A DNA stretch of 64,000 nt. Origin: Fontisphaera persica (GTDB taxonomy: Bacteria; Verrucomicrobiota; Verrucomicrobiia; Limisphaerales; Fontisphaeraceae). Position numbers and translations under genes: made by a program. The notes under the pieces are model-generated. The model was not told where the DNA came from. It was given only the letters and a program-made list of their open reading frames with translations, and did no database searches. Each line of letters begins with the position of its first letter. Position 1 is the stretch's first letter. Where the stretch lies: NCBI RefSeq assembly GCF_024832785.1, contig NZ_CP116615.1, positions 682,001 to 746,000 of the forward strand, written 5' to 3'. Positions 3,379 to 20,900 of the stretch are shown here, piece after piece.

Positions 3379-3954
3379 TTATTCGTCCGAAAGTAGGGTG
3401 TCAGCCAGAATGGCTAGGCGCACCCGTTTGGCGGCTTCCGCCTGGAAATCCGGGCGCGGTGGAATCATCCACCGGTCCAGCGAAGCGCTAGTGTAATTGC
3501 CCGTTTCCGGCGGTGGATTACGCCGTTCAGGGGGATACTGGCTTTCCCAAACCTTTTCCAACAGGGAGGCGAGGCAATTCTGAACCACGCCTTTATATTG
3601 CCGCCGAAACAGCCGCAATACATTCCAATCTGGCCGGTTGCCGGCGCAGATGTATTTCAGCGCCCGGTCATGTGGAATGGCCAGCTCGATATCGCGTGAG
3701 CCGGTCAGCCCCCGGGCATACGCGCAGGTCAGGAGCGTCAACAGCATCGGTGCCTGGTATGCTCCAAAGGCCGTTTTGAACTGGGTCTGCTTGAACTCCG
3801 GCTTGACCTGGTCTATGGCTTCCAACGTCATGCGTACCAGCGTCAGCGACCCCACCCATTCCGTCACGTCTCTGGGCATCGCCACCGGCTTGCGGGTCAG
3901 CGCCGCTTCGCCCCCATTACCCTCGGGCCATTCCTTGTGATTCGCGGCGTCCAT
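3379..3954 (-). CDS. Stand-alone DUF772 / transposase N-terminal-domain protein, 191 aa
   Basis: The central part (FGAYQAPMLLTLLTCAYARG, then SRDIELA, then GNRPDWNVLRLFRR) matches the DUF772 helical domain that begins IS5/IS1182-type transposases (InsH N-terminal). The DDE nuclease domain that should follow is absent; instead there is a short tail with RRNPPPETGNYTSASLDRW. The frame is open and intact. An ATG at 3954 is preceded by AGGAG (3964-3960) five bases upstream, so I prefer it to the in-frame ATG at 4020. A strong terminator follows. No inverted repeats or target duplications are visible, so this looks like a retained or domesticated DNA-binding domain rather than a live element; a decayed transposase is the alternative. 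Confidence 0.7.
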   Translation of the reverse strand: MDAANHKEWPEGNGGEAALTRKPVAMPRDVTEWVGSLTLVRMTLEAIDQVKPEFKQTQFKTAFGAYQAPMLLTLLTCAYARGLTGSRDIELAIPHDRALKYICAGNRPDWNVLRLFRRQYKGVVQNCLASLLEKVWESQYPPERRNPPPETGNYTSASLDRWMIPPRPDFQAEAAKRVRLAILADTLLSDE

Positions 3955-4217
3955 ATTAACTCCTTTCTCCGATTCTCGTTGCTTCGTTCCCCAATTTCCC
4001 ATGTCTTTCATTTCATTCATTCATGCTTAAACTACCCCACCCTTGTTACGGAAGCATGGCGTGGAAGTTAAATGTAGAAGGGCATTTGAACTGTTCTAAG
4101 TAACTCGGAAAGAAGCGGTTATCCTGCCCCCACTCCCGTTAAACTGAGAGCGGGGCAGGGGAGGGCCACCCCCGGGCGACCGGCGGGCTAAACCGTGTTA
4201 AGGCCGACCTGGTGAAC

Positions 4218-7200
4218 TCAAGGGCTTAATTTCAGGCGGTAAAACCGGCGGGGCCGGTCGGCGGCCTGCTGGTCTTCAAATACAATTCGCCCTTGGGGAT
4301 TGGTGAAACTTGCGGCTCGTGTCCATTGCCGCAAATCCTCAGAAGTTTCAATGTCGAGGCTCGTGCCCGCAGGGACATCAAACGCCAGTCGCAAGACGCC
4401 ATTGGACCATTGCAAAGACTCCGGTGGCAGGCTTAACCCATGCACGATAACGGTGGCCACCTGGCTGGTCACGGCTGCCACCGCATTGGAGACCACCACG
4501 TAATATTCTCCCGCATGAGCCATTTGCAGCGGCGCTAGCACCAGTTCAGCGTTGGTGGCCAGCGGCAGGGGCGCGCCGTTGTGCCACCATTGGTAACCTA
4601 GGTCAGTACCGGTGGCCGTCACTAATAAGGACAAAGAGCCGCCCACCCAACCTTCGCCGCTTTGTGGATGGTCCCAAATCTCCGGGGGAATCCTCACCGT
4701 GACGCGGGCGATGCGGCTGGTGACCACCCCGATGGCGTTGCTAATCACCACCCGGTAGTTGCCCGCTTGGAATGATGTGACGTTGGCCAATTCCAGCGTT
4801 GGGCCGGTGAAGGCTGGCAGGCGCAAATTGCCTTGATACCACTGGTAACTCAATGGCGCCATGCCGCTGGCCACCACGGACAATTGAACTCGTCCCAGGT
4901 AATCCACCTCCACGTCCGCCGGCTCCTGCAAAATCACCGGCGGGTCATTCGGGTAAAGCACCTCCGCGTAGAGGGCCATGCCAAAGACCACATCCGAACT
5001 TGTTGCGCTTTGCTGATGCACCTCCACCGCCATGACATTAGCTGCGCCAAAAAACACTCCGTTGGTATCCAGCGTCACCACCTCATAAACACCCTCCGGG
5101 GCAGTGGCATTGGCAAAAGTGCTGGCATTGACCGTGCCTTGATTCATCCGGATGCGCGCCTTCTCCAGCCCGTTAAGGTAAATGACCGCGCCGTCATCTA
5201 CCAGATTGGAGGAGATTAAACGCACCCCACGCGCCCCTTGCACGGCGGGCAGGTTGAAGGTGGTGCGGAAATAATAAGTCGTGATGGCCCCACCGCCGGG
5301 CGTGGTCAGGCTCAAGAGCGTGTTGATGGGTGCTATCGCCGGGTTGTCCTCTACGGCCAACAGCCCGCGGCCTTGCGGCCAGGTGGCGTCACTGTAAGCA
5401 GTGCCGCGCCAGGTCGTGCCTAAATCCTGGCCTTGCTGGTGGTAACGCCAGAGGTTGGTGATGCCGAACACCAGCAACCGATTGGTGAGGGTGCCCCGGT
5501 CAATGGTCAACCGGGCCGGTCCACCCACTGCCATGCCAAAGGCATTCGAGACCACCACGGTGTAATCCCCCTGGTGTTGGTAGCCGGCATTGGTAATCAC
5601 CAGCAGTCTATCCGTGGCTCCGACCAGATTGGTGCCATTCAGCCGCCATTGATAGCTCAGTGGTTCCCCTCCATAGGAAGAAACGCTAAAACGCGCTTCG
5701 GCTCCCAAAACAACCTCCACATCCGCAGGATGCTGGAGGATTTCCGGTGGGGCGTTGGTGGCGTCAACAAATAATAATTCGGCATCAGCAAAGCCCGCGG
5801 TTTCGCCATATTCCGGGCGAAACTGTGAACCCGATTCGTGGTGAAAATACCAGCGCCGGCGGGAAATGGACACGGTGAAATTGCCCATGTCACCCAAATT
5901 TTCAAAATTATTGACCACCGACGTTTGCCAGTCGGAAACACGGGTGCGGTTGATGGAGGAACGGCCCGTGTTCCAATCCACCGAGCAATACACCATGTAA
6001 GGCGCTTCATCATAATATTCCACCACTCCCCATGCCGCCCAGGTTTCAGAGCCATAAATGTAAAACTGGGCTGTATCGGGAGCCGGGCCGTAGGGAGTGA
6101 CACGGCCGCTGGGTAGTTCAATGTCATAGTATATGCGCGTGGTGGAGTCATAGAGACCCACGCGGTTGAAACCCGAACAAACCAGGCTTCCATAGGTGTT
6201 TGTAATGGCACGTGATAATTCGATGGTGCGCCCGGTCTGAGTCAGATTGGTGCCATGCAGCTCCACCAGGTGGGTGATGCGCTGGTTGCTGCTGTAGTCA
6301 ATGAGCCGCGTGCCCTGAGCGAAAGAATAGACGGTTTCCGTACGCAGGTTGCAGACCAGCCCGTAATAAGGAGAGGAACCCACCGTGGAGGCTTGGGTCA
6401 AGTCGCCGGCCAGCCAACGACCGGTGCGGCTATCGCCGGTTACAAAAACATGACTGCGCGAGACCGCGATGCCACCGCAATCGTCGCCCGTCAGCGATTC
6501 ATGGTCCACCGTTTTGCTGTTGTTGGTGAGCAGATTGACGATACGGAAGGTGTTCGGCAGCAATTGGACAAATCGCACCTGCGCCATCCGGCTGGTGGCG
6601 GCTCCGTAAAGATTGGTAATCACCACGTGGTAGAGGCCAAGGTTTCCTGACTGGATGGAACTGAGTTTCAACGTGTCATTCGTGGCCGCGAGAATGGCCT
6701 CGCCGTTGTAATACCATTGATAGGCAAATGGCGGGGTGCCTACGACTGCCACCTGCAACGCGCCGTCATTTCCGGGAAGAGTACTCAAGTCCGCTGGCTG
6801 CAAGCTAATCATGGGTGGGGATAACACTGTGACCATGGCCGTGCGGCTGGTGACGGCGCCAAAATAATTGCTAACCACAGCGTAATACCCGCCCTGGTAA
6901 TTCAAGTTAACATTGGGCAACGTTAAAACTGGATTGGTATAACCTATCCATTCGCCTTGGAAGTACCAATTGTAAAACAAGGGAGCATCTCCTTCCGCCT
7001 CCACGCGCAGTTCCAGTGTATTACCGGCCAGCACGGTTACATTGGTAGGGTGGGTGGTAATGCGTGGTACATTTCCCACCACCACATTGGCCACGCCGCT
7101 GGTGGCGCTGCCGTAGGGATTGGCAACGACCACGTAATAATCCCCCAGCGACTGGCTTTGCACATTGGTGATGACCAGCCGGTTGGTGTTGGCCGCCAGC

Positions 7201-9476
7201 GGCTGCCCGTTATGAAACCATTGATAACTCCGGGGCAACGCCCCGGCATCGGAAACCGCCAGCACTGCGGTTCCTCCCGTTTGCAAATATTGGGACGCCG
7301 GCGAGGCAATGATAAAGGGTGGAGCTTGAAGGCTTCTCTCAACGCTGACCGCCGCATATCCCAGTATCTCGCCGCCATTGGGACGAAATTGGGAACCAGC
7401 CTCATGGTGAAAATACCAGCGATTGCGGGAAAGGGAGAGCGTGATGCTGGCCATGTCGCCCAAATTATAGAAGTTTTGCAGCACTACCGTTTGCAGTCCA
7501 AGCTGTCCGGGAGCGGCTCCCGGCCCCACAGTGCTCCGCACGATGTTGCGGGTGTCCCGCACATACACCAAGTGCAAGGCATTGCTGAAACATTCCGCCA
7601 CTCCCCAGATGGCCCAACTTTCAGAGCCGGAATATTGTGGAAAACTCAGGACCCCCAGGTCGGTGACGGTGCCATCCGGCAACGAAATATGGTAAAGCCT
7701 GCTGCTGGTCCATAAAACAAAACGCCCGCTGCCACTGAAAACGCCGGAATTCCAGGTTTGAATCGTAATGGGCTGGCTCAGCGCCACTCGGCGTCCTGTC
7801 CAAAGTCCGGTGTTGCCATCCAATTCCAGTAAACCGTCCACACGGGTCAAATTGTAGTGCTGGAATTGATTGGTTCCCTCAGCCAGCGAATAGATTTTTT
7901 CCGTGCGCAAATCAGCCACCAGGCCATCCAGGACGACATTCATCCGTGCGCCCCCGCCGAGCGTGCCTGCATCGTAATGCGCCGTGTAGTTGTCGCCGGT
8001 AATAAAGACGCGATTGCTGGACACCACCAATCCGCCGCGGTCATCCCCCGTCAAGTTGTTATGGTCAATGGCCACCACGTTATTGGTGCTGAAGCTCAAA
8101 ATGCGAAAGATATCGGTATCTGGTTGAGCCACCGTCAACCACGCGACGGTGCTGGTGGCCACGCCCGCCGGATTGCTCACTTCCGCCCAGACGCGCCAGC
8201 CATTTTGGAAGGTGGTAACGTCCTCAAAAACCAATTGGGGGCCGGAGGCAAAAGGCCAAAGGGTCCCATTGACAAACCATCGGTAACTCAGCGGTGGGCT
8301 GCCAGATGCTTCCACTTCAAACACCACCGTTTCGCCTTCGCTCGCTGTGCGATGGGACGGCTGACGCAGGATGACCGGAGGGCGGGCGCCGGTGTGAATG
8401 ACCACATCGTCCAAAGCCCATTGGGCAAATCCCACACCGCCATGCGCCGGCTGGTACCAGCGGAATTGGGTGTTGGTGGAAATGGCTGCCGGCGGTAGGG
8501 GAATTTCCAAAAAAGTCCAGTTGGTCAGCAAGGCATTGGTGAACACCTCCAAGACATTCCATTCTCCGTTGCCCACGCGGTATTCCAGTTGCACGGCCTC
8601 TTCGGGCAAAAGGGTTTCTCCCCATTCTTCGCGCCCCCCGGCCGCATAACGCAGATAAAAAGCCACTCTTGCTTCATCCAACAGAGAAAGCGGCCGGCTC
8701 ACCAAGTATCGTTCATCGTCACCCCCAAACCACAAGCTGTTCACGCCAGAAACCGCGCCTGCATAATTGGTCACCAGCACGTCCACCCCCAGAGCGCCGG
8801 CAAAGGCGACCCACGCCCCCGGTTCCACGTCTGGTTCAAAGTCATCCATGAAACCGGGGTCAGGCACGATGACCTGAAAACTCCGGGTGACCCCCGTGGT
8901 TTCGCCCCAATTATCTGTGGCCTCCACCCGCAAGGTATGGGGACCCAGGCTGAGATTGGTCAGGATGATATCGTAGGGGGGCAGGGTCAACAGCCCCAGC
9001 AGGGCATCGTCCAAATACACCGCGAGATTGGTGATGCTGCCGTCGGCATCCGATGCTGCAAGGCTCACAACTAGAGGGGTGCCCAAAGCCACCAACTCAC
9101 CTTCTCGCGGCCGTGCCACGGTTAATTCCGGCTGGGCATTCACGACAATTTCCACAGTGGGTGACCAGACACTGACCTGGTTGTTGTCCGTCGCCAGTGC
9201 GCGCAACAGGTTGGTGCCGGCAGGGGGATTGGTCCAAAGCAGGGTAAAAGGCGCGTTGGTGGATGTGCCCACATACGTTTTACCGCGGTAATAGTCCACG
9301 CGCACGACCATGCCCTCGGCGTCGAAGTATTGCACCGTCACCGGCAGGGGCAGTGAGGGGTGCGCGATGAATTGCCCGTTGGTGGGCGAGGTGATGTTAA
9401 CCCAAAAAGGCTCCTGGGCCATTGCCATCATTCCCAGGCAAAGCCACAAGGCGCCCAACCGCCAGCCATTCTTCAT
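4218..9476 (-). CDS. Exported multi-Ig-domain protein with a duplicated unknown module, 1752 aa
   Basis: A signal peptide spans residues 1-20 (LWLCLGMMAMAQ). Next come two Big_9-like domains with 'VEATDN/ALATDN' motifs (about 25-210), a jelly-roll-like region with FMDDFEPD (about 215-365), then at least seven Ig-like domains marked by PLSYQWY and YYVVVSN. Between them lie two copies of a module of about 255 residues (about 457-710 and 977-1235). The copies share LTGDD-GG, VF-TGD and RWYFHHE-GSQFRP, and I cannot assign the module to a known family. A jelly-roll unit with DDGAVIYLNG lies near 1400-1510. The C-terminal module ends RRFYRLKLSP. The role is probably surface or secreted binding. The frame is uninterrupted over 5.3 kb and there is no clear Shine-Dalgarno. 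Confidence 0.85.
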   Translation of the reverse strand: MKNGWRLGALWLCLGMMAMAQEPFWVNITSPTNGQFIAHPSLPLPVTVQYFDAEGMVVRVDYYRGKTYVGTSTNAPFTLLWTNPPAGTNLLRALATDNNQVSVWSPTVEIVVNAQPELTVARPREGELVALGTPLVVSLAASDADGSITNLAVYLDDALLGLLTLPPYDIILTNLSLGPHTLRVEATDNWGETTGVTRSFQVIVPDPGFMDDFEPDVEPGAWVAFAGALGVDVLVTNYAGAVSGVNSLWFGGDDERYLVSRPLSLLDEARVAFYLRYAAGGREEWGETLLPEEAVQLEYRVGNGEWNVLEVFTNALLTNWTFLEIPLPPAAISTNTQFRWYQPAHGGVGFAQWALDDVVIHTGARPPVILRQPSHRTASEGETVVFEVEASGSPPLSYRWFVNGTLWPFASGPQLVFEDVTTFQNGWRVWAEVSNPAGVATSTVAWLTVAQPDTDIFRILSFSTNNVVAIDHNNLTGDDRGGLVVSSNRVFITGDNYTAHYDAGTLGGGARMNVVLDGLVADLRTEKIYSLAEGTNQFQHYNLTRVDGLLELDGNTGLWTGRRVALSQPITIQTWNSGVFSGSGRFVLWTSSRLYHISLPDGTVTDLGVLSFPQYSGSESWAIWGVAECFSNALHLVYVRDTRNIVRSTVGPGAAPGQLGLQTVVLQNFYNLGDMASITLSLSRNRWYFHHEAGSQFRPNGGEILGYAAVSVERSLQAPPFIIASPASQYLQTGGTAVLAVSDAGALPRSYQWFHNGQPLAANTNRLVITNVQSQSLGDYYVVVANPYGSATSGVANVVVGNVPRITTHPTNVTVLAGNTLELRVEAEGDAPLFYNWYFQGEWIGYTNPVLTLPNVNLNYQGGYYAVVSNYFGAVTSRTAMVTVLSPPMISLQPADLSTLPGNDGALQVAVVGTPPFAYQWYYNGEAILAATNDTLKLSSIQSGNLGLYHVVITNLYGAATSRMAQVRFVQLLPNTFRIVNLLTNNSKTVDHESLTGDDCGGIAVSRSHVFVTGDSRTGRWLAGDLTQASTVGSSPYYGLVCNLRTETVYSFAQGTRLIDYSSNQRITHLVELHGTNLTQTGRTIELSRAITNTYGSLVCSGFNRVGLYDSTTRIYYDIELPSGRVTPYGPAPDTAQFYIYGSETWAAWGVVEYYDEAPYMVYCSVDWNTGRSSINRTRVSDWQTSVVNNFENLGDMGNFTVSISRRRWYFHHESGSQFRPEYGETAGFADAELLFVDATNAPPEILQHPADVEVVLGAEARFSVSSYGGEPLSYQWRLNGTNLVGATDRLLVITNAGYQHQGDYTVVVSNAFGMAVGGPARLTIDRGTLTNRLLVFGITNLWRYHQQGQDLGTTWRGTAYSDATWPQGRGLLAVEDNPAIAPINTLLSLTTPGGGAITTYYFRTTFNLPAVQGARGVRLISSNLVDDGAVIYLNGLEKARIRMNQGTVNASTFANATAPEGVYEVVTLDTNGVFFGAANVMAVEVHQQSATSSDVVFGMALYAEVLYPNDPPVILQEPADVEVDYLGRVQLSVVASGMAPLSYQWYQGNLRLPAFTGPTLELANVTSFQAGNYRVVISNAIGVVTSRIARVTVRIPPEIWDHPQSGEGWVGGSLSLLVTATGTDLGYQWWHNGAPLPLATNAELVLAPLQMAHAGEYYVVVSNAVAAVTSQVATVIVHGLSLPPESLQWSNGVLRLAFDVPAGTSLDIETSEDLRQWTRAASFTNPQGRIVFEDQQAADRPRRFYRLKLSP

Positions 9477-9523: not shown

Positions 9524-9583
9524 AAAAAAGGCCTATCCAGCCCCTGTTGGGCTTAACTCATAGTCTGCTTGTTCGGGCCTTTT
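9524..9583 (-). terminator. Possible terminator after the giant gene
   Basis: Outer arms AAAAGGCC (9526-9533) and GGCCTTTT (9576-9583) enclose a smaller hairpin AGCCC/GGGCT. On the minus strand the structure ends in TTTTTT. It overlaps the stop codon of the gene ending at 9582 and lies upstream of the next minus gene (start 9476). The wide loop makes it a moderate call. Confidence 0.4.
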
Positions 9584-12500
9584 AAGGCAAGAGCATTATC
9601 CGGTAATAACGCTGCGGACGCGTCGGCGACAGCACATCCGGCACCATGGCTGGCCCGCCATTGCCGGTGACCAGCCCGCCCGGCAAATCCAGCCAGACGG
9701 GGTCCGTCAGGCGGTCTTTGTATTGCACTTGATATTGCCGGCCGGCCTGCGTCTGCCAGCGAATCTGGATGTTGCTGCCGCTTTGCGTCAATTGCGCCCG
9801 GCGGTCTTCCACCGTCACAGTGAAAGTCTGAGTGGCGCTTAGGCTGGGCACCCCGTTATCGCGCACAATTATCGTGATGGGATAAACCCCCATCGCCAGG
9901 GGAGTCCAGGTGAACACCCCCGTCACCGGATGAACCGCAGCGCCGGCTGGCGCGCCTGCGCCTAATTCAAAGGTCAGGGTCTGCGCCGGCACGTCAGCAT
10001 CCGTGGCCGCATTCGTGAACACAAGGGTTTGACCCAGCGCCACCGTGCGGTTGGGAATGGCGGCCAGCACTGGCGGCGTGTTCAGCGCCACAGCATTGGT
10101 TTGCAGGAAATTCACTGGCGCGGCAACCCAGTTGGCGGGGTCATTGCCGAAGAGGGCCACCGCCACCCGCTGCAGGGAATAACCTGTGCCGTCCGCGGCG
10201 GCCGGCCACGGTGCCCGGTCATAATACCGCACCCGGTCCACTTCCACATACGGGACCAGGCCGGCGTCCGGGCTGGGCGGCTGTTCAGGGGTATCGGGCT
10301 GTTTCAATTCAATGCTTTCATCGCTATTATCCAATTTGCCCCGATAGGGGCCCACGATGGGCATGTTGGTGGAGAGACGGTAAGTGGTCCGGAAATTGGC
10401 CAGCAGCTCCGGTTGCAGAACCGGATCAAAACTCACCACCAGCACTGAGCCGCCCGGCGGCAAACTAAATCCTTGCGGAAACTCGAAGTCCACCGCATCG
10501 CGCAACCGCCAGGTGTTGGTGGGGTACAAAGGATCATACAACGGCACCGTGCCGGTGGTGCGGTTGTAGAGCTCGATAAATTCATGAATGACGTTGTCAT
10601 TGGTGTCCAGATCGGGCGGATGATACATGATTTGCCGGATGACCACCGGGCTGATGGCTGGGTAGGCGTTGCTCGCGCCGTTGCCCGTGCGGAATTCAGT
10701 GACGGAATTAGGCTCGTCCACCCCAAAAGTTCTCCGGCTCATCGCCACGAATTCCGAGCGATTGTCGCTGGTCACATGGCGTCCGAAGCTGGTTCCGCTG
10801 AAGCTGGGGCCAAACTTCACGCTGGTGCGGTAGCCGGTCAGTGTGCCATTGGTGGTGGCGGCTGACAGATAAACCTCATCGCCCTCAGCCGAGCTGAGCG
10901 CAAACGCCTGGCGGTTGTCCTGCGGATTGTCGTTGAATTGGTACTCGTAAAACACCTTGAATCCGCGCGGCGGAATCACGGTGCCCGGCGGGATTTGATA
11001 TTTCGCCAGTGTGCCCTTGCTGTCGCTCAGGAACCAACCGCCAATATCCACTGGTTGATCGGTGACATTGTGCACTTCAATGGCGTCTTCGAGCGGCGGG
11101 TCGCTATGTGCCATAACTTCGTTGATGACGATGTTGGTCAAAGGACGATAATTCGACTCGCCGGGCGACGGTGTGTCGGGGAAGAACACGATGTTCGTGC
11201 TGCCATCGGGGAATCGTCCCTCACTCACGCCCGGCTGCGAGACCGGATAATTCCAACTGACCGAATCAATGTAACCATTGGAGGTCGCCAGACCGAGGGA
11301 TTCACGAGTGGCATCCAAACGGAAGCGCACATGATTTGCTCCGGCGGCTGGGTTGTTGTCCGCAATTAATTTCAAGTAGGCATTGGTGCCACCGCCAATG
11401 AAAGACAGCGGCGGGATGGGGGATTTGGTGGGATTCAACAAATCATCCGTTACAAACAGTCCCCCCAGCGCCACCGGCAGGCTGCCCGGATTGTAAATCT
11501 CAAACCAGTCATCCCGGCCATCCCGGTCATTGGGCATCCATTCGTTGAGGCGGAGCAGGGAGGGATTCCCCAACGGCATCGCAATATTGGCCCCCCGTGG
11601 GGTGGGAGCCGTCAACACAAAGGCCCCCAGGCCGTCCGGCACGCGCCCGATGGAAAAGTCAGTGGTTTGTATGCCATACACCGCCGAGGAAAGCAGCGTC
11701 AGCGTGTCATCGTATAAATAAACGCCACCGCCTTCAGCTTTCAGGCCAAAGCCCGTGTTCATCACGCTGGTCCCATTGGTGCTGGATGGTTGCTGCCCAT
11801 CAAATAGCACCACCAGATAGCTGCGAGGGCCCAAAACCGTGCCGGCGGGGAAGGTCCAACGGGCCGGGTTGGCGGTATTATCGCTTAAGCTCATGCCGGC
11901 CAGATTCACCGGCTGGTCTCCCGGGTTGTACAACTCCACCCAGTCGCTGGCCACACCCACGACGTTGGTGTAATTTTCGCCCAGGGCAAAGACTTCGTTG
12001 ATCACCACGGAGCCGCCCGTGATATTGGTGGTAGTCCGGGTGAGCGTCAAATTCATGGCCATGGCCATATCAGTGCTGCCCGAGGCCTGATGCACCTCCA
12101 CGGCCAGCACGTTGGTGCCTGACACCAAACCCGTCAGCGGCAGCAGCACCGGCCCGACTAACGGCGCATTGCCACTGACACTGGAGGAGGCGTTGTTACT
12201 ATAAGTGATGGTTCCGGCAGGCATGTTGTACCGCAGGATTTCCGTGCCATTCAAATACACCACCGCGCCGTCATCAATGTAGTGCGACAACGCCAGTTGG
12301 AAGCCGTTCGTTTCGCCGGTGTAAACAAACCGGGTGCGGAAGTACACCGTTGTTTGCCCCAATTCATTTAAGACGGTGCCAGTGGGAATGGGATAATTGC
12401 CACTTAGCGATTTGCCAAACAGCCCCGGCCCGCTGGGCCAGGCGCCATCATTGTATCCGACGTTGCGCCATGTGGTGCCCAAATCCGTTCCATCAGCCTG

Positions 12501-14018
12501 ATAACGCCATGTGCTGGTGAAGTCCACCAAGAGGATGTTGGTGGTCACAATGTTGGTGCTGCCTCCCGTGAAGGGGTTGCCTGCTCCAGGGGTGGGCTGG
12601 TTGAACACATAAATACTGGGCGAGCCGTTGGGACTGCGGCCTTGCGAGGCATCAGGCGCTAGGAAGTCATAATAGACCGTGTCAATCACCCGCAAATCCG
12701 GCCCCAGCAAGGCCAAATCGCCATGTTCGGAAGCCAGACGGAAGTTCAAATGATCCGGCCCGCGCTCAGGTTCGCCAGTGGCCTGAAACACGGTAAAGTT
12801 GCGTGGTCCGATGAAACTTAACGGCGCAATCACGTGACGGGTGGGCCAGCCATCCAGCTTGTCGGTCAAGTACAAGCCGCCCAAAGACACCGGTACGGTT
12901 TGCGGGTTGAACAATTCCACAAAATCATTGAAGGCACTGAACTGCGAGGCTGCCAGCCATTCGTTGATGCGCAATTGGGTGGGATCGCCCAATTCCACCG
13001 GTATATTGGCGTTGCCCAAAGTTGGCTGGCACAACGTCCAGCTTCCATCTGGCAGACGGCCAATGGAATAGTCAGTGGCTTGCGGGCCATACTCCACAGC
13101 ATCCAACAGCGCTCCGCCCCGATGCGCCGCGTCATACAGATACAACCCGCCGCCCTCTCTGCGCAAATTGAAGTCCAGATAGTACCCGGGCTGTCCCTCA
13201 TCATTGGCCGCGATGGCAATCAAATACTGGTTCGGTCCCAAAATGGTTCCGGCCGGGAATTCGTATTTATCCGGCGCAGCCGGGTCATCGGTCAGGCGCA
13301 AGCCAGATAAATCCACCGGCGACGAACCATAATTGTAAAGCTCCACCGCATCCGGGGTGCGCTCATTGAATTCAAACGACCGCCGGTTGCTGGCCAGCAC
13401 CTCATTCAACCGCACCGGCAACCGGCTGCCGTCCACCACCCAACTCACCCGGGTCACCACCGCATCCTCCCCAAACACCGGGTCATCCTGCCACCAGCCG
13501 GCGTCATTCTTCCCTGCCACCTCCACCACGTGCGCCCCATCCGGCAGCCCGCTCAACACAATCGGTGTGCCAATCGGGGTCTCCCCGCTCCACGGGCCCC
13601 CGTCCAACCGCCACCGGTAATGCGTGTAACCCGCCCCCGCCGGATACGCCCCCACCGGCATCCCGTTCCCCGTCACATTAAAGCCCACCCGCAACACCGC
13701 CCCACGCTCCGGCGTCACCCCCTCCGGCACCCCCGCCACCTCCACCCCCCATCGCCCCGTCGCCCCACGCCCCCGCGCCGGACTGCCCGCCCGCAACCCC
13801 AGCCACTCCCACATCACCTGCGCCCCCGCCCAGTTCGTAAACGCCGTCTCCCCACCCCCGGCACCCGCCGCAACTGCGGGTCCACCCCACATTCCCCCTC
13901 CCGGCCCCGTCCAGCTCCCGCCCCCACCTGCCACAGCACATTGTTGGTCCACGTCACCACCGCATTGGTCACCCCCCGCACCAGCCGCTCCGCCGTGTGC
14001 ACCACGTTGTTCTCCCAA
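9582..14018 (-). CDS. C-terminal part of giant exported LTD protein (frame-shifted from upstream part)
   Basis: This is the downstream reading frame of the gene that starts at 25218. The first 45 or so residues of the open frame (Gly/Ala-rich) are not real coding sequence in this frame; sense resumes at ETAFTNWAGAQ near 13,848. Contents in order: an Ig-like domain (HYRWRLDGGPW), two LTDs (LNEVLASN, INEWLAAS), a jelly-roll unit (DDGAVVYLNGTEILRYNMP), four more LTDs (INEVFALG, LNEWMPND, INEVMAHSDPP, RQIMYHPPD), a cadherin-like domain (ATDADVP ... VRDNGVPSL), and the shared C-terminal module ending RYYRIMLLP. There is no start codon context, signal peptide or ribosome site at 14018, which supports it being a continuation and not a separate gene. 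LTDs 5-6 are close paralogues of those in the gene at 672-3200. Confidence 0.75.
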   Translation of the reverse strand: MGEQRGAHGGAAGAGGDQCGGDVDQQCAVAGGGGSWTGPGGGMWGGPAVAAGAGGGETAFTNWAGAQVMWEWLGLRAGSPARGRGATGRWGVEVAGVPEGVTPERGAVLRVGFNVTGNGMPVGAYPAGAGYTHYRWRLDGGPWSGETPIGTPIVLSGLPDGAHVVEVAGKNDAGWWQDDPVFGEDAVVTRVSWVVDGSRLPVRLNEVLASNRRSFEFNERTPDAVELYNYGSSPVDLSGLRLTDDPAAPDKYEFPAGTILGPNQYLIAIAANDEGQPGYYLDFNLRREGGGLYLYDAAHRGGALLDAVEYGPQATDYSIGRLPDGSWTLCQPTLGNANIPVELGDPTQLRINEWLAASQFSAFNDFVELFNPQTVPVSLGGLYLTDKLDGWPTRHVIAPLSFIGPRNFTVFQATGEPERGPDHLNFRLASEHGDLALLGPDLRVIDTVYYDFLAPDASQGRSPNGSPSIYVFNQPTPGAGNPFTGGSTNIVTTNILLVDFTSTWRYQADGTDLGTTWRNVGYNDGAWPSGPGLFGKSLSGNYPIPTGTVLNELGQTTVYFRTRFVYTGETNGFQLALSHYIDDGAVVYLNGTEILRYNMPAGTITYSNNASSSVSGNAPLVGPVLLPLTGLVSGTNVLAVEVHQASGSTDMAMAMNLTLTRTTTNITGGSVVINEVFALGENYTNVVGVASDWVELYNPGDQPVNLAGMSLSDNTANPARWTFPAGTVLGPRSYLVVLFDGQQPSSTNGTSVMNTGFGLKAEGGGVYLYDDTLTLLSSAVYGIQTTDFSIGRVPDGLGAFVLTAPTPRGANIAMPLGNPSLLRLNEWMPNDRDGRDDWFEIYNPGSLPVALGGLFVTDDLLNPTKSPIPPLSFIGGGTNAYLKLIADNNPAAGANHVRFRLDATRESLGLATSNGYIDSVSWNYPVSQPGVSEGRFPDGSTNIVFFPDTPSPGESNYRPLTNIVINEVMAHSDPPLEDAIEVHNVTDQPVDIGGWFLSDSKGTLAKYQIPPGTVIPPRGFKVFYEYQFNDNPQDNRQAFALSSAEGDEVYLSAATTNGTLTGYRTSVKFGPSFSGTSFGRHVTSDNRSEFVAMSRRTFGVDEPNSVTEFRTGNGASNAYPAISPVVIRQIMYHPPDLDTNDNVIHEFIELYNRTTGTVPLYDPLYPTNTWRLRDAVDFEFPQGFSLPPGGSVLVVSFDPVLQPELLANFRTTYRLSTNMPIVGPYRGKLDNSDESIELKQPDTPEQPPSPDAGLVPYVEVDRVRYYDRAPWPAAADGTGYSLQRVAVALFGNDPANWVAAPVNFLQTNAVALNTPPVLAAIPNRTVALGQTLVFTNAATDADVPAQTLTFELGAGAPAGAAVHPVTGVFTWTPLAMGVYPITIIVRDNGVPSLSATQTFTVTVEDRRAQLTQSGSNIQIRWQTQAGRQYQVQYKDRLTDPVWLDLPGGLVTGNGGPAMVPDVLSPTRPQRYYRIMLLP

Positions 14019-14930
14019 TACATCCCCGCCCCTCCGCCGTCCCCTCGTCCGCCAATATCGCCACCGCCGTCACCCCATCCACACTCCCCACCCCGTTCTG
14101 CCACACCACCGTGTTCCCCCGTAACACGTAGAAATTCCCCTCCTTCGCGTTGGCCACATGGTCCAAATCGTAAAACAAATTGTTCACCGCCGTAATCCGC
14201 GACCGCTGCCCCCCGTTCTGACCCCCGCTGATCGCACTGCCGCTGTCCGGCGTGCTCCCCGCCCGCCGCGCCCGCACAAACACGTTCCCCTCCACCCACG
14301 CATCCGTCCCGTCCAAATCCAGCAAATCATCGTCGCTCCCCAGGAACACGTTGTTCAACAACACCAGCACCGGCCCCGGCCGCTGGCCCCCCGTAAAGTC
14401 CAGCGCGTCATTGTACCCGCTCACCTTCCCCCAGAAGTTCCGCCGGAATATCCCCCGCCCCCCCGCCTTGATGCCCCCCGTCCCGTGCGTCGGCTCCACA
14501 GCGCCCGTCGGCGCCGGAAACTCGCAGTTCTGCACCACAAACGACGCCCGCGTCAGCTCCAAATACTGCCGCGCGGTATTCCCAAACCGCACATTGTCCA
14601 GCCACACCGTCCCGTCGGTCACCGTAATGGCCGTGCTGTTGTTGTGCTCTATCATCACATGCACCAGCCGCGACTCCGGCGAATTGGCCGACCCGTTGAC
14701 CGTAATCCCCCCCCACGTCGTGCTCGCCCCCGGCGCCCGGGTGAACCGTATCGGCGCCGCCGCCGTCCCCTCCGCCAGCAACCGCCCCCCGTTGGCCACC
14801 ACCAGATTGACCCCGCTACCCAGATACACCGTCGTCCCCGCCTGAATGGTCAAAGTGGCCCCGCTGCCCACCGTCAGCGTCCCCGTCACGTTGTACGGCC
14901 CATTGGCCGCCAGCCACGTCGTGTCCGTGC
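13390..14930 (-). other. G-rich, C-poor coding-strand patch 1
   Basis: The coding (minus) strand turns strongly G-rich here. In plus-strand bases 14,221-14,340 I count 61 C and 22 G by hand. Codons end almost always in G on the coding strand. The patch covers the beta-helix domain and the junction of the two broken frames of the giant gene. On both sides codon use returns to the mixed C/G-ending pattern. The same state recurs at 29.8-32.9 kb and 39.4-40.3 kb. Boundaries are judged by eye to within about 50 bp. Confidence 0.7.
13850..14027 (-). other. Cluster of five apparent single-G losses joining two frames
   Basis: Adding one G (coding strand) to each of five G-runs, at about 14024-14027, 13921-13925, 13894-13898, 13885-13888 and 13850-13853, gives one continuous frame from the upstream part into the downstream part. 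The restored protein reads sensibly: GMYWENNVVH, then NNVLWQVGGGSW, GGNVGVDPQLRRVPGVG, ETAFTNWAGA. That is the usual end of a parallel beta-helix domain. The five shifts run through all three frames in the expected order. Either the sequence is under-called in G-runs or the gene is truly damaged; the first is more likely. Confidence 0.75.
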
Positions 14931-17900
14931 TGATGGTGCCGGAGACGGGCACGGTGTCGCCGCGGTCGTAGAAGAAAACCAGGTTGGTGCTGGCGAAGAC
15001 CACATTGTTACTGTTGACCGTTTCAATCCGCACCAAATTATAGCCTGGATTGAGCGTCAAGTTGGCGTTCCATTGGCCGGTCCAGGCCGTCCAGCTTACG
15101 GGGATGCCTTGCACACGGACCTGGCGCGTGTGAATCATGTTACCTACTCCGCGCAGATTGATGTTGGGCGTGGTGGCGACATACACACCATTGTTGAAGG
15201 CGAAGGAGCTGAGGTTGGTGACCACCAAATTCAGGTTGATTTGGGATAGCACGCTGGCCACCCGCTGAGCCGACCAGTTCTTCATCCGCGCCACTGTGGT
15301 GCCGATATTTAACGGCCCCAACACCTGGTCGTAAGTGGCGAAGATTTCATTGGTGGCAAAAATGGTGGTGGCGTATTCGTACAACGCGCCAAAATAGAGC
15401 GGTGCAAATTCCTGGTGTCGCAGGAACCGGTTATTGAAAGCGATGGCGCCGCTGGTTTCCACGGCCCGCCAGATGGAAATGGTGGGCTGCTGGCGCGAGC
15501 CGTCGCCCTCGCCAAAGTTGGTGTCGCCGTCGTGCGGCATGATTACGGCACGCCGGTCCTTCGTGCCTAGGTAAATTGTAGCGTCATCCGGGGCGCCGTC
15601 GCTGCCGATGGAGGTTTCCCCGAAGCCAATAAGGCTCATAACCGCGAAGTGCCGCACCCATTCATCCACATGGATGACTTCGCGCACGGCGGCAGCCCAT
15701 TGAGCATCGGGGGTGTTGTTAATCGCCCAGAGCATGTTATACAAATCACTCCAGTCATTCACCCGCTGGTTGGAGGCCTTGGAATAATTGTACCCGCCGG
15801 TGGTGTAGCTGGTGTAATTGGTGCCACGATAGAGCAAATCGGCCACGCGCATGAGGCGGTACATATTGCCGTCGGCGTTGTCCGGATAATGATTCTCGGC
15901 CCAATCGCTGTTTAACTCCTCCAGGTGGAGGTAATAGGGGAACGGCTGATTATTGCCGGGCCCGCCAATCGCGGAACCAATCATGTTGACCAATTCCACG
16001 CCGTTGAGCTTGAGCCGCACCAGGTTGCCTTCCTCGCAGGGCAGGCCGGCTTTGCGGAACATGATGCTGCCCATGTACTGCGAATGCACATATTTGCAGT
16101 TCAAATTGAAGGCTCGCTGGTTTCGCCACAGATTGTCGGTGGGGATGTTGATGCGGTAATTCTGCATACCCCCCGGGTTGCAGGTACTGCAGCGGGAGGA
16201 ATTGCCGCGGTTGCGGACGCCGCACAGGTACCGTACAGCAGTCCCGGAGCTGTCAGAAGCAATGAAGGTGGTGTTCATTTCCGCATTGATGCGGTAGGTG
16301 GCATTGTCCACCTGCCAGATGTTTTGAATTTCCTGGCGTTCCGCACCGGTCATAATCAAGCGATACTGCGGCTGCGGATAGACGGCGCTGTCATTGTCCA
16401 CCTGGTATAATGCATTGGCCACTTGGCCCATCGAAGAGCCATCCAGCTCATACGCCGGTCCGGGCCAGGTGCGGGTGTTGTTGGCCGCATCGCGGGCCTC
16501 CACGTAAAACTCCACAATGGTCAGATTGGTCTGAGGCGGCACCTGCCCGCTGTAAACGCGGTCGCCCGCAACCCAATCGCCGCCCTGTCCATCGTCACGC
16601 ATGGGGACGGTAGTAAAATTGCCCGGTGTGGTGGAGGAGGCATTCCGCCAATAGAGGGTTACGGTTAATCCGCTGGTTTGCTCATCCAGAATCAACGCCG
16701 AAATGCGCACGGTGTTGGTGGCAGTGGGCATCGCCGGGGAATGCTCCACACCAATAATGAGCGGCGCTGAGTTCTGGACCGCCACGGAGTTGGCAGCCCC
16801 CGGTGTGCCGCCAGTGACAGTGCTGGCCTGCCAGTTCTGGCCGTATTGGCTGGGTAGATTCGTGTTTATCAATTCCAGGCTGGAACCCCAGCCATCGGCA
16901 GTCGTGTACCATTCCCATCCGCGATGTCCATTTTGGTAAGTTACACTTCCCCGGCGCCGGATGGCCCAATCGCCTTCGCTGGCATAAGGCACCAGGTCCA
17001 CGCGGGCGCCCCACGCTGTTTCCAATTCCACATCTTCACCGTTGTTGCTCAACTGGCCTTGCCAGTTGCCAATGACGTTGGTGACGTTGGGGTAGAGTTG
17101 GCGGAAGCGGTTGGTGTCGCTAGCCACCACCCAATACCCATAAGCGGGCAAGGTCATCGGCGGGAAGGTAAAGTCCACGCCGCGATTAAACCGCCAGCCT
17201 GTAATATTAATGGGGGCAGGAGTAAGGTTGCGAATTTCCAACCATTCTTCATCGGTGCGGAAGGAGGGCGTATTGTACATGATTTCGCTGATGACCACCT
17301 TGCCCGCATAATTGGCCTCAGGCTCGTAAGTGTAAGTCCATCCGCCGCCGGTGAAGCGATTGGGCGGGCTGGCGAGGTCCCGAATCACATGGCCGGGCGC
17401 CCACGTGACCTGCACCAATCCTGTCAGAGGGGATGGCACATTGAACATATACGGCCCGGCGCCCGCGCCGTTCACGCTGTTGGCGGGCAGCCCGTTCACC
17501 AACAAGGCGCTGGCTTCCACGCCCTGCACCGGCTCGCTGAAGGTCACGGATATTTCCCGCAGGCTCACCACCACCGCGCCCGGAATGGGGCTGACCGAGG
17601 TGATGACCGGAGGCGTGGTGTCCACTGTGTAATACTGCCACCGGGCGGAGGGCGCAGTGCCATCGAACAAATTAGGCGAGCTGGCGGTGTCGGCAATGCC
17701 GTGGCTGGCCACCCAGGAGAAACGAATGATGGAAGCATTCACCGGCGCAAAGGTGAACACATAATTGCTGCCGCCGCCGCTGACCGACAACGCCGGTGTT
17801 CCGTTAATCAGCAGGTCCCGCGCATCCACGCCAGTCACGTTTTCGCTGAAAGTCACCGTAACCTGGTTCAAATTGGACACCGTACTGCCCAGTGCAGGTT

Positions 17901-20900
17901 GTACCTGCGCCACAAACGGGGCGGTGCGGTCAATTAACTGTACCTGCCACGAAGCGCCCGGCCGGCGCTGGTCAAACGCATTGGGCGGATTATCCAGGTC
18001 CGTAATGCCGTGGTTTTGCGCCCAGCCGAATTGTACCGTGCCATAGGCCGGTTGGGGGAAGGTGAAGGTGTACACCGAGCCGCCCCCGCTGACGCCAGTG
18101 GCCGAATTGCCGTTGACCAAAAAGTCGGCCGCATCCACACCTGTGACTGCTTTGCTGAACTTCACGGTGACCGAGGTCAACTGCGTGACCGTTTGAGAAC
18201 CATCCGGCGTTTTGTTCACCACCACCGGCGCATTAGGATTGAGCAAATTATAAATAAACCGCGCCGAGGAAGCTGAACCATCGAAGAAGAGCGGCGGCAC
18301 GGACAAATCGCGAATGCCGTTGCCGGCGGCCCAATTCACCAGCACACTGCCGTAAGGCGGCTGCGGGAAGGTGAAGGTATAGATGTTATTGCTGCCGCTC
18401 AACCCGGTGGCCGGTTGTCCGTTGACCAGCAAATCCGCCGCATCCACGCCGGTCACCGGCTTGCTGAAAGTTATGACCAGATTGCTCAGCGCAAAGACAT
18501 CCCCCGACGCCGGCACTGCTCCGATAATAACCGGTGGCAGATTGGCCGGACTGCCACTAATTTCCGCGGAAAGCTCGGCGTTCAGGGCAAAATCCGAACT
18601 GGTGGCATTTACATTGAAGCCGTGAATGGCCAGCACGTTGGTGCCCCGCACCAGATAGGTGGAGGGCGCAGGATTGCTTAACGGGTAGCTGTAGTAATCA
18701 GGCCCGCCCCCCGGTAATTCCGTGGCATTGGCCGTCGCAAAGCTATTGTAAAAAACGGGGTTGCCCGCGCTACCCATGTTAAACCGGGCCACCTCCACGC
18801 CGTTAATCCACGCCACGTACCCATCGTCCACCGCCACGCGCAACAGCAAATTCGTGACGAATGCCGGCTCTTCGATGACAAACGTCTTGCGCAGGTAAAG
18901 GCTGGAATAGGCATTGTTGTTCATGGCCGGAATGAGGGTTCCGCTCAAGGGATCACCGTAATAGAAATAGGTAATCCCGGTGGGCCACGCCGCGGCGTTG
19001 TAGGTCGGTAACCGCCAGGCTTCAATGGGATTGGAAACTTCGTTGGTGCCCAGCCGGTACGACCATACACTGTTGCTGGCAATCAAGATGACCCGCGGCG
19101 GTTGCAGGGTGTAATTCCAAGTGGCCCCTGCGCCGTTGGCGTCGAAGGGATTGCCCACCAGGTCCGTGATGCCATGATTGGCCGCCCACCGCACGTTCAC
19201 CGTGCCGTAAGCCGGCGAGCTGATGTAGAAAATGTAGGTGTTGTTACTCCCGCTTAGACTGAAAGCAGGCACATTATTGACCAATAAATCCGCTGCGTCC
19301 ACGTTGAGCACGGGTTCACTGAAGGTCACTTGCACAAAGAACAGATTGGAAACCACCGCATCGGCCGGCGGCGTTTGGCTGGTCACCACCGGCGGGGTGG
19401 TCTCAACCACCGTGTAACTCCAGGACGCCCCCGGCGCGGTGTGGTCAAAGGGCATCGGCGGAATACCCACATCGCGAATGCCGTGATTAGCGGCCCAAGT
19501 CACATTCACCGTGCCGAGATTGACCTGCGGGAAGCGAAACACGTAATTGCTGCCACTGCCCACCACGTTGGTGGCGGGCACTCCGTTGAGCAACAAATCG
19601 CCCGCGTCCACGTTAACCACCGCTTCGCTAAACACCACGGTGATTTGTGACAGGACCCCCACCGAACTGCCGCGCGCCGGCACGACTTCAGCAATTTCCG
19701 GTGGTGCCTGATACTCCAGATTGATTTGCCAGTTGGCACTGGGCCGGAAAGTCTCAAAAACATTGGCCGGCTGGCTGGCGTCGGCAATGTTGGCATTCAA
19801 GTCCCATGTTACTGGCACAGCGCCATACGGCGGTTGTGGGAACGTGAACAAATAGCCCCCATTCGTGGCGGTTACGGTGAGGGCCGGTTCGTAGTTAACT
19901 AGAAGGTCCTCTGCGTCCACCCCCGTTACCGGGCGATCAAACCGCACCCAAATATTCGTCAATTCGTTGGTGGTGCTGTTGGGGGCGGGGATGCGTTCCG
20001 CAATCGCCGGGGCGTTGGAGTTGTAATAAATAAAAGACCAGGCATGAGCAGCGCGATTGAAAGGATTGCCTTTGATATCCGTGATGCCGTTGGTCACTGA
20101 CCAAATCACCGTGTGGTAACCATAGCTCAGTGCCGGGAGATTGAAGACGTAGATGTTGGAGGCCAGCGCCGTCAAACCCACCGCCGGGCGCAAGTCCACC
20201 AGCACATCCGCCGCATCCACCCCCACCACCGGCTCGCTAAATTGAACGGTAATGGTGGAGGCCACCGGTGTTTCCTGTCCCGGTGCCGGTGAGCGGCTGA
20301 TGAGGACCGGCGGCACACCATCCAGAATGGTATAACTCCAGGTGTTTCCCGGAGCTGTGCCGTCCAGCCCCAGCGAAGGCACTCCCAAATCGCGAATCCC
20401 ATGCCCGCTGGCCCACGTGAACTGAGCCGTGCCCACGGGGGGCTGGGCGAAGGTAAACCGGTACGTTGTGCCCGAGCCTTCCACGGCCGACACCGGTTCG
20501 CCGTTGAGAAGCAAATCGCTGGCGTCCACACCCACGACTTCCTCGCTGAACTCTACCACCACCTCGGTCAAATTGGTCAGGGCGGTGGGCGTCGGCGTCA
20601 CCCGGGCTACCACGGGCGGCTCCTGGAAAACAAACGTCACCGCCCAGTTGGCCAGCGGGTCCGTGCTGTCAAACACATCCTGGGGTGAACCTGCCGCCAT
20701 AATGTTGGCATTGGCGGCCCAGGAAAACTGCACTTGGCCATAGGCTGGACGGGCAAAGGTGAATACATAATTGCTTTCGCTGCCACTTGCCGCCGTGGCC
20801 GGCGTTCCGTTGATTAGAAAATCAGCGGCGTCCACCCCCGTCACGCTGCGGCTGAAGGTCACGCTGGCATTGGTAAGGCTTACAACCAGGCTCTCCGGTG

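Follow-up and report, generated by a model that had tools for sequence, protein, structure and literature searches.

Plant-type glutaminyl cyclases (PF05096) are five-bladed propellers. The olfactomedin domain (PF02191), present in myocilin, olfactomedin-1, latrophilin and gliomedin, has five blades and about 255 residues and is carried by extracellular multidomain proteins. Some of its members bind Ca2+ through acids in the central cavity, gliomedin folds without the ion, and a disulfide between the N- and C-termini closes the ring in some members only (PMC4488277). GH43 enzymes have an Asp of blade 1, an Asp of blade 3 and a Glu of blade 4 in the top pocket of a five-bladed propeller (PMC4356313). 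Here, we describe a module of about 257 residues that is present twice in a 1752-aa protein, encoded on the minus strand at positions 4218-9476 of a 64,000-nucleotide stretch of the Fontisphaera persica genome (contig NZ_CP116615.1, positions 682,001 to 746,000; the whole stretch is called the window below). The module is predicted to form a five-bladed propeller, and we lean slightly towards the view that it serves cation-assisted recognition as part of secreted proteins, with an acidic pocket that probably binds cations.

Predicted fold and family of the duplicated module

The preliminary description of this DNA had reported a duplicated module in the 1752-aa protein, and the duplication was confirmed. 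The copies lie at about residues 457-711 and 977-1236, are 44% identical and are separated by three immunoglobulin-like (Ig) domains. The motifs quoted earlier were found in both, LTGDD at residues 475 and 995 and RWYFHHE at residues 686 and 1208. A protein search of the whole genome (4.73 Mb, a single contig) with copy 2 returned only copy 2 itself and copy 1 (E 9e-56, 45%). By this comparison, the similarity of the two copies is far beyond chance.

Genome contigs were scanned for further copies, and the module was found at 48 loci in Verrucomicrobiota, Myxococcota/deltaproteobacteria, Planctomycetota, Bacteroidota, one cyanobacterial metagenome-assembled genome (MAG) and one MAG labelled 'Proteobacteria'. 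After removal of repeats, 108 near-full-length copies were retained. Four pairs of these have an identity of 95% or more, one of them being a single module of G397, a genome of the same genus as the window, that was counted twice. Rows L001, L002, L004, L058 and L071, which were the window copies fetched again, were dropped in favour of the two window copies themselves. A module had to cover at least 225 profile positions to be included, and at least 230 to enter alignment A2 (74 members), 61 of which make up A3.

AlphaFold2 predicted a propeller with high confidence for each copy. The model of copy 2 (74 sequences) had a pLDDT of 94.8 and a pTM of 0.92, and that of copy 1 (61 sequences) had a pLDDT of 94.7 and a pTM of 0.92. 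Residues are numbered below by the copy 2 model (protein residue = 968 + model residue). DSSP assigned 21 strands to this model, which were read as five four-strand blades and one short strand. The inner strands were assigned to residues 31-37, 72-75, 129-134, 179-187 and 231-235, each followed by the further strands of its own blade, and the N-terminal strand (residues 8-14) completes the last blade, blade 5, closing the ring. Five four-stranded blades and a closing terminal strand were assigned in both models.

The solved structures were ranked by re-alignment of the Foldseek list. The matches of copy 2 to glutaminyl cyclase 3mbr (Z 12.0, rmsd 4.2, 208 residues aligned), NHL domain 1q7f (Z 11.6, rmsd 3.9, 207 aligned) and olfactomedin 4wxq (Z 11.5, rmsd 4.0, 217 aligned) were within a tie. 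For copy 1, olfactomedin 6nax (Z 12.2, rmsd 3.7, 211 aligned) and 3mbr (Z 12.1, rmsd 4.0, 202 aligned) ranked above the NHL domain (Z 10.8), which is presumably six-bladed. GH62 4o8o (Z 9.6, copy 2) and GH130 5a7v (Z 10.4, copy 1) were also matched. When Foldseek was used alone with copy 2, glutaminyl cyclase 2iwa came first (E 8.9e-7, TM 0.43), and olfactomedin was absent from the best 50 matches listed. A viral fold library gave propeller-like proteins and no specific match. The earlier suggestion of a propeller-like fold agrees with the structure predictions, and its lectin-like alternative was not supported, since the top fold matches are propellers.

Cysteines C19 and C262 were present jointly in 54 of the 108 copies and singly in 1, and C175 and C230 jointly in 50 and singly in 1. 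All four occurred together in 49 copies, with the first pair only in 5 and the second pair only in 1, so the pairing itself rests on six one-pair copies. Both pairs fall at positions that the five-blade reading makes neighbours: in the model, blade 5 would be fastened to the closing strand by C19/C262 and to blade 4 by C175/C230. The window copies are without all four cysteines. No internal sequence repeat was found in ten pairs of blades except between blades 3 and 4 (P 0.0009). As a prediction, the propeller fold is secure. The number of blades, five, is deduced from the strand list and the solved matches, with the cysteine pairs as sequence support.

It had been stated earlier that no family could be assigned, and the confident Pfam match named beforehand as the finding that would overturn this did not appear. 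Neither copy alone matched Pfam or NCBIfam below E 0.1. Among the 74 members of A2, DUF6923 was matched by 6 (best E 0.0026) and DUF4394 by 3 (best E 0.0018); judged by these E-values, the gathering scores of 27 bits for DUF6923 and 29.6 bits for DUF4394 were not reached in any of the 74. Single-member matches to DUF7382, DUF4988, DUF7196, Reprolysin_2, OB_YrrC and Kelch_3 (E 0.028-0.08) were set aside. NCBIfam gave five families with one member each, the best (E 0.0007) being a short sorting-signal model. At E 0.1, none of the 74 members matched olfactomedin (PF02191), plant-type glutaminyl cyclase (PF05096), GH43 (PF04616) or any other Pfam glycosidase. A profile search of PDB sequences returned six S-layer chains, presumably of C. 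difficile (best E 0.0071); the match covered profile positions 10-119, under half the length, and was taken as chance.

Profiles were then compared by hhalign. A2 against eight DUF6923 sequences gave a local probability of 35% (34.7%, P 4e-4) over 63 columns and 3% in global mode. Four myxococcal glutaminyl cyclase sequences, a thin profile with Neff 1.9, gave 1% (1.0%) over 36 columns, and eight GH43 sequences gave 0.3%. The positive control, the Bacteroidota module rows against the rest, gave 100% (E 1e-64). DUF4394 itself had one match in 59 genomes. Among the papers listed by searches of the open-licence PMC literature, none describes the module, as judged by its title or the opening of its abstract.

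From these searches, the module is best called a new family on a known fold class, and by sequence it belongs to neither the olfactomedin nor the glutaminyl cyclase family; a distant tie to DUF6923 is possible. Like the olfactomedin domain, it has five predicted blades, about 255 residues and multidomain hosts that are probably extracellular, and the fold match is near full-length (Z 9.1-12.2). Unlike that domain, it is found in bacterial hosts, has no Pfam match to it and only 5-10% identity, carries a larger and differently spread acid set, and has its own co-occurring cysteines (C19/C262, C175/C230), both pairs of which are missing from the window copies. The plant-type glutaminyl cyclases are similar in size and match at Z 11.1-12.1, including the Myxococcus xanthus enzyme 3nok. 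However, the profile similarity is 1%, and the four strong myxococcal cyclase matches are in frames of 303-326 aa, whereas the module is in larger hosts. Identity to the olfactomedin and glutaminyl cyclase folds together ranged from 5 to 13%. DUF6923 and DUF4394 gave weak Pfam matches, and DUF6923 gave a local but no full-length profile match.

Conserved acids and the proposed recognition site

Conservation was calculated as weighted frequencies over 74 copies. G134, G182, E185 and R209 were all at 100%, followed by R240-W241 and a group of acids. Eight acids are conserved. Blade 1 begins with D30 and D31, and blades 2, 4 and 5 begin with D70, E176 and D228, respectively; D47 lies in the B-C loop of blade 1, and E246 and E257 flank that of blade 5. 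In terms of motifs, the set includes the acids of LTGDD and TGD, the Glu of GSE-WA, the Asp of LGDM and the Asp that precedes inner strand 2. Copy 1 has all eight (D478, D479, D495, D517, E619, D674, E692 and E703). Copy 2 has seven (D998, D999, D1015, E1144, D1196, E1214 and E1225), with Y1038 at the position of D70. By their residues, both window copies look competent. By topology, the eight acids would lie on one face of an up-and-down propeller.

The acids were kept as D or E in full by 87 of the 108 copies, while 13 lacked one, 3 lacked two and none lacked three or four. The remaining five lacked five to seven of the eight, and all five kept G134, G182, E185, R209 and W241. These degenerate copies are in L008 (aa 228-497 in open-frame numbering), L016 (aa 115-378), L003, L065 and L066. 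L008 and L016 each have one degenerate and one intact copy in the same protein. When the per-position losses were shuffled, 0.95 rows on average had three or more losses, and the observed five were reached in 11 of 10,000 shuffles.

When D30 was compared with 43 further positions, each conserved in 80% or more of the copies, its loss was most strongly associated with that of the other seven acids. The loss was 5/5 vs 1/103 for E176 (p 5e-8), 4/5 vs 1/103 for E246, 4/5 vs 3/103 for each of D31 and D228, 3/5 vs 1/103 for E257, 3/5 vs 2/103 for D47 and, as the weakest of the acids, 4/5 vs 16/103 for D70 (p 4e-3). W178 (3/5 vs 7/103), A179 and G215 came next, and a ninth conserved acid, E185, was unlinked to the loss (0/5). 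Parsimony on a quick tree counted four losses for the five degenerate copies. Since the acids were lost together and the fold residues were kept, the acids appear to be one functional unit that is dispensable for the fold. This points to a functional site that is not required for folding.

The RWYFHHE-GSQFRP stretch had been described as strongly conserved and as a possible binding site, and both statements hold in part. R240-W241 are strongly conserved, and the GSQFRP end is weaker in the wider family (S249 80%, F251 80%, P253 7%). E246 and E257, which lie on either side of the residues that follow RWYFHHE, belong to the acids that are lost together. On the other hand, W241 and F243 depart in 0/5 and H244 in 2/5 of the degenerate copies, the P of FRP is unconserved, and most of the acids are elsewhere.

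In the reading that we lean towards, the module would be an autonomous five-bladed propeller, its ring closed by the N-terminal strand against blade 5, and would serve as an exchangeable head for recognition in multidomain proteins that are secreted or anchored at the surface. The face with the D-A and B-C loops would hold a pocket of up to eight carboxylates, with W178 nearby. A carboxylate cluster at one end of the propeller channel suggests cation binding, and one or more cations, most likely Ca2+, may be bound there. Via or beside the cations, the pocket would bind a ligand, which would most likely be a surface polymer such as a glycan, and repeated copies, as in this protein, would add avidity. 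The repeated copies at a third of the loci and the types of domain found in the hosts argue for binding rather than catalysis. From these observations we infer the pocket geometry, the cation, the ligand and the adhesive role alike. A more specific proposal is doubtful as a whole: the modules may be a patchy new propeller family with an olfactomedin-like multi-carboxylate pocket and no detectable sequence relationship, used as a Ca2+-dependent glycan- or prey-binding head in predatory and polymer-degrading bacteria, with adjacent dead copies kept as scaffolds.

The model gives a fold and a likely working face for an unclassified domain of very large exported proteins, many of which are known only from MAGs. 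If the pocket is a cation-dependent binding site, it would provide a handle on the attachment of Verrucomicrobiota and Myxococcota to polymers or prey, and the natural copies without the acids are ready-made dead-site controls. Annotators also gain a profile for 108 copies, and the 74 scanned had no curated model.

Several observations weigh against this reading. The joint loss of the acids was seen in five copies, all from the phylum of the window, and gave only two independent pairs on well-supported branches, so that no tree-corrected test can reach 0.05. The acid set and its anchor, D30, were chosen after the alignment had been viewed. Conserved charged or Trp residues were not significantly more frequent in the loops of the top face than in those of the bottom face (5/72 vs 0/37, p 0.16). 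The sharing of one pocket by eight acids is deduced from topology and joint loss and not from distances. The fold matches themselves are modest, with Foldseek TM-scores of 0.28-0.48 of the query among the 50 matches listed, and for copy 2 the NHL domain ties with olfactomedin. A single copy was seen in the frame at 31 of the 48 loci, which weakens the avidity argument; some of the frames at the 48 loci are truncated at contig ends. Selection is also unspecific. The two modules had approximate dN/dS values against G397 of 0.085 and 0.065, compared with 0.155 for the intervening Ig domains and about 0.11 for the whole protein; dS was near saturation. The modules thus appear to be under purifying selection, but not uniquely so within the protein, as several other domains were similarly constrained (0.081-0.088; 0.085 for Ig6-7 and 0.081 for a second unassigned domain).

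The arrangement of a blade 1 Asp and a blade 4 Glu and Trp also resembles a glycosidase active site, and the main rival view makes the module an enzyme on a five-bladed propeller, such as a glycoside hydrolase or lyase, whose acids would be catalytic and substrate-binding. We regard this as unlikely. D30/D31 are conserved where blade 1 begins, and E176 and W178 where blade 4 begins, as in an acidic top-face pocket of the GH43, GH62 and GH130 kind; in GH43, the top pocket has an Asp of blade 1, an Asp of blade 3, and a Glu and Trp residues of blade 4 (PMC4356313). The presence of GH62 and GH130 among the fold matches and the many single-copy loci fit an enzyme, and the joint loss of the acids is as compatible with dead enzymes as with dead binding sites. 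Against this, blade 3 of the module has no conserved acid, which leaves the GH43 catalytic triad incomplete, and there are extra acids on blades 2 and 5. The module had no sequence match to glycosidases, in the Pfam scan or by hhalign. Catalytic domains seldom form arrays as long as those seen here, which reach eight copies, and a neighbouring enzyme domain (subtilase) was found in one host, with a second host recognised by eye only.

A still less likely explanation is that one or more structural Ca2+ sites merely stabilise the propeller and that the module is a spacer or assembly domain without a ligand of its own. Ca2+ is bound in the central cavity of olfactomedin propellers, its addition raises the melting temperature of olfactomedin-1 by about 8 degrees, and gliomedin without the ion is still very stable (PMC4488277). 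The five copies without the acids also keep the fold residues. However, eight carboxylates would exceed the need of one buried ion, and W178 tends to go with the acids. As a further alternative, the module might be a diverged branch of a family already described, chiefly DUF6923 but also DUF4394, the olfactomedin domain or the plant-type glutaminyl cyclases. This is very improbable, because the weak DUF matches are below the curated cut-offs, the DUF6923 profile match is confined to a quarter of the module, as expected of one shared propeller blade, the olfactomedin and cyclase folds that rank among the best matches share little identity, and the cyclase profile gave 1% where the within-family control gave 100%.

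Distribution, host proteins and copy history

A survey of Verrucomicrobiota had been recommended in the preliminary description. The module is present in this phylum but is not confined to it, as the scan of genome contigs found other phyla too. In the large scans, nine candidates were scored per genome and the counts are lower bounds (G689 gave 9 in one scan and 11 in another); the centre genome is counted in each. In the phylum of the window, 2 of 387 genomes carried the module by the two-row profile A1, which is probably less sensitive than A2. In the order of the window, at least 14 of 293 genomes carried it by A2. The module was also found in at least 8 of 282 genomes in the phylum of a Myxococcales genome and in 10 of 42 in the order of a Flavobacteriales genome. 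From these counts, the module is widespread but patchy. The record of L036 is titled 'Proteobacteria bacterium', and the contig number, coordinates and score of its module are the same as those of G462, which is in the order of the window; L036 is probably a mislabelled MAG.

Host proteins from 20 of the 48 loci were scanned with Pfam. Stig1 cysteine-rich repeats were found in nine, and the hosts without them had Ig, Calx-beta, cadherin, RTX, SprB/Por_Secre_tail, Reelin-like or subtilase domains, except L036, which matched nothing. By eye, many myxococcal hosts have a lipoprotein-like signal at the start and the module at the C-terminus, and other hosts have a plain signal peptide. From these signals we infer export or surface location of the host proteins. 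In 17 of the 48 loci, two to eight copies (eight in L021) were present per open frame, either directly adjacent or interspersed with other domains. Another type of host was noticed in L115 (genome G816), in which the module follows an N-terminal stretch resembling, by eye, a sulfatase-modifying-factor (FGE) domain.

The protein is conserved in G397 with both of its modules and in the same gene order. The G397 ortholog is 77.7% identical overall, with 80.8% and 81.5% for the modules, 65.5-75.9% for the three intervening Ig domains, 86.0% for Ig6 and 83.3% for the second unassigned domain. In the quick tree, each window copy groups with its own G397 counterpart, so the duplication is older than the split of these two genomes. 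The free tree put copy 1 and copy 2 apart. A tree constrained to unite both copies and their G397 counterparts had a score higher by 22 log units and, with a p-AU of 0.82, was not rejected, which favours a duplication within this lineage.

No phage or plasmid origin of the module was indicated, as tblastn gave no match at E 0.01 in 50,697 phage and 72,556 plasmid records. The whole protein matched PHROG families, and the best stretches of these matches fall on the Ig domains; a phage link on this ground was rejected.

Layout of the host protein and its neighbours in the window

The features of the protein are given below from the N- to the C-terminus.

4218-9476, minus strand: exported multidomain protein of 1752 aa, the host of both module copies (open reading frame (ORF), Pfam scan, syntenic G397 ortholog, dN/dS).
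9417-9476, minus strand: N-terminal signal peptide, about aa 1-20, read from the sequence by eye and not by a signal-peptide program.
8862-9410, minus strand: two Big_7 Ig-like domains, about aa 23-205 (PF17957, E 6.8e-21, 2 stretches, best 26-89; outer limits by eye).
8397-8771, minus strand: Reelin_subrepeat-B-like domain, aa 236-360 (PF21471, E 4.6e-23).
8121-8384, minus strand: Ig domain, about aa 365-452 (Ig_3, 7 stretches protein-wide; limits by eye).
7344-8108, minus strand: module copy 1, about aa 457-711, predicted five-bladed propeller (alignment, model, fold matches, residue states).
6567-7334, minus strand: three Ig domains between the copies, about aa 715-970 (Ig_3/I-set/Ig_2; limits by eye).
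5769-6548, minus strand: module copy 2, about aa 977-1236, predicted five-bladed propeller (alignment, model, fold matches, residue states).
5544-5750, minus strand: Ig domain, aa 1243-1311 (best Ig_3 stretch).
5001-5522, minus strand: second unassigned domain of about 170 aa, about aa 1319-1492 (no Pfam match at E 0.1; tblastn recurrences).
4461-4988, minus strand: two Ig domains, about aa 1497-1672 (Pfam scan; limits by eye).
4221-4460, minus strand: C-terminal stretch of about 80 aa ending in RFYRLKLSP (no Pfam match at E 0.1).

The best stretch of PF00047 (ig), at residues 1073-1112, is inside copy 2. No stretch of it passes alone, and it was taken as chance, as were the matches of copy 2 to OCRE (E 0.11) and to an NCBIfam regulator model (E 0.19). 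The second unassigned domain recurs in the window: by tblastn, the corresponding stretch of the G397 ortholog matched positions 12054-12548 and 53995-54582.

On the minus strand, two large ORFs at 9582-14018 and 13969-25218 lie in different frames and overlap. Their counterpart in G397 is a single uninterrupted frame that matches positions 9585-13850 and 14020-14934 of the window. From this alignment, the gene in the window looks split by a frame disruption near 13.85-14.02 kb, either real or an assembly error. At 3379-4020, also on the minus strand, a 213-aa ORF has a sub-threshold DUF772 transposase domain (E 0.00016, 22.1 bits against a cut-off of 23.1). This ORF is 81% identical and syntenic in G397, and it is perhaps a transposase fragment kept for another use.

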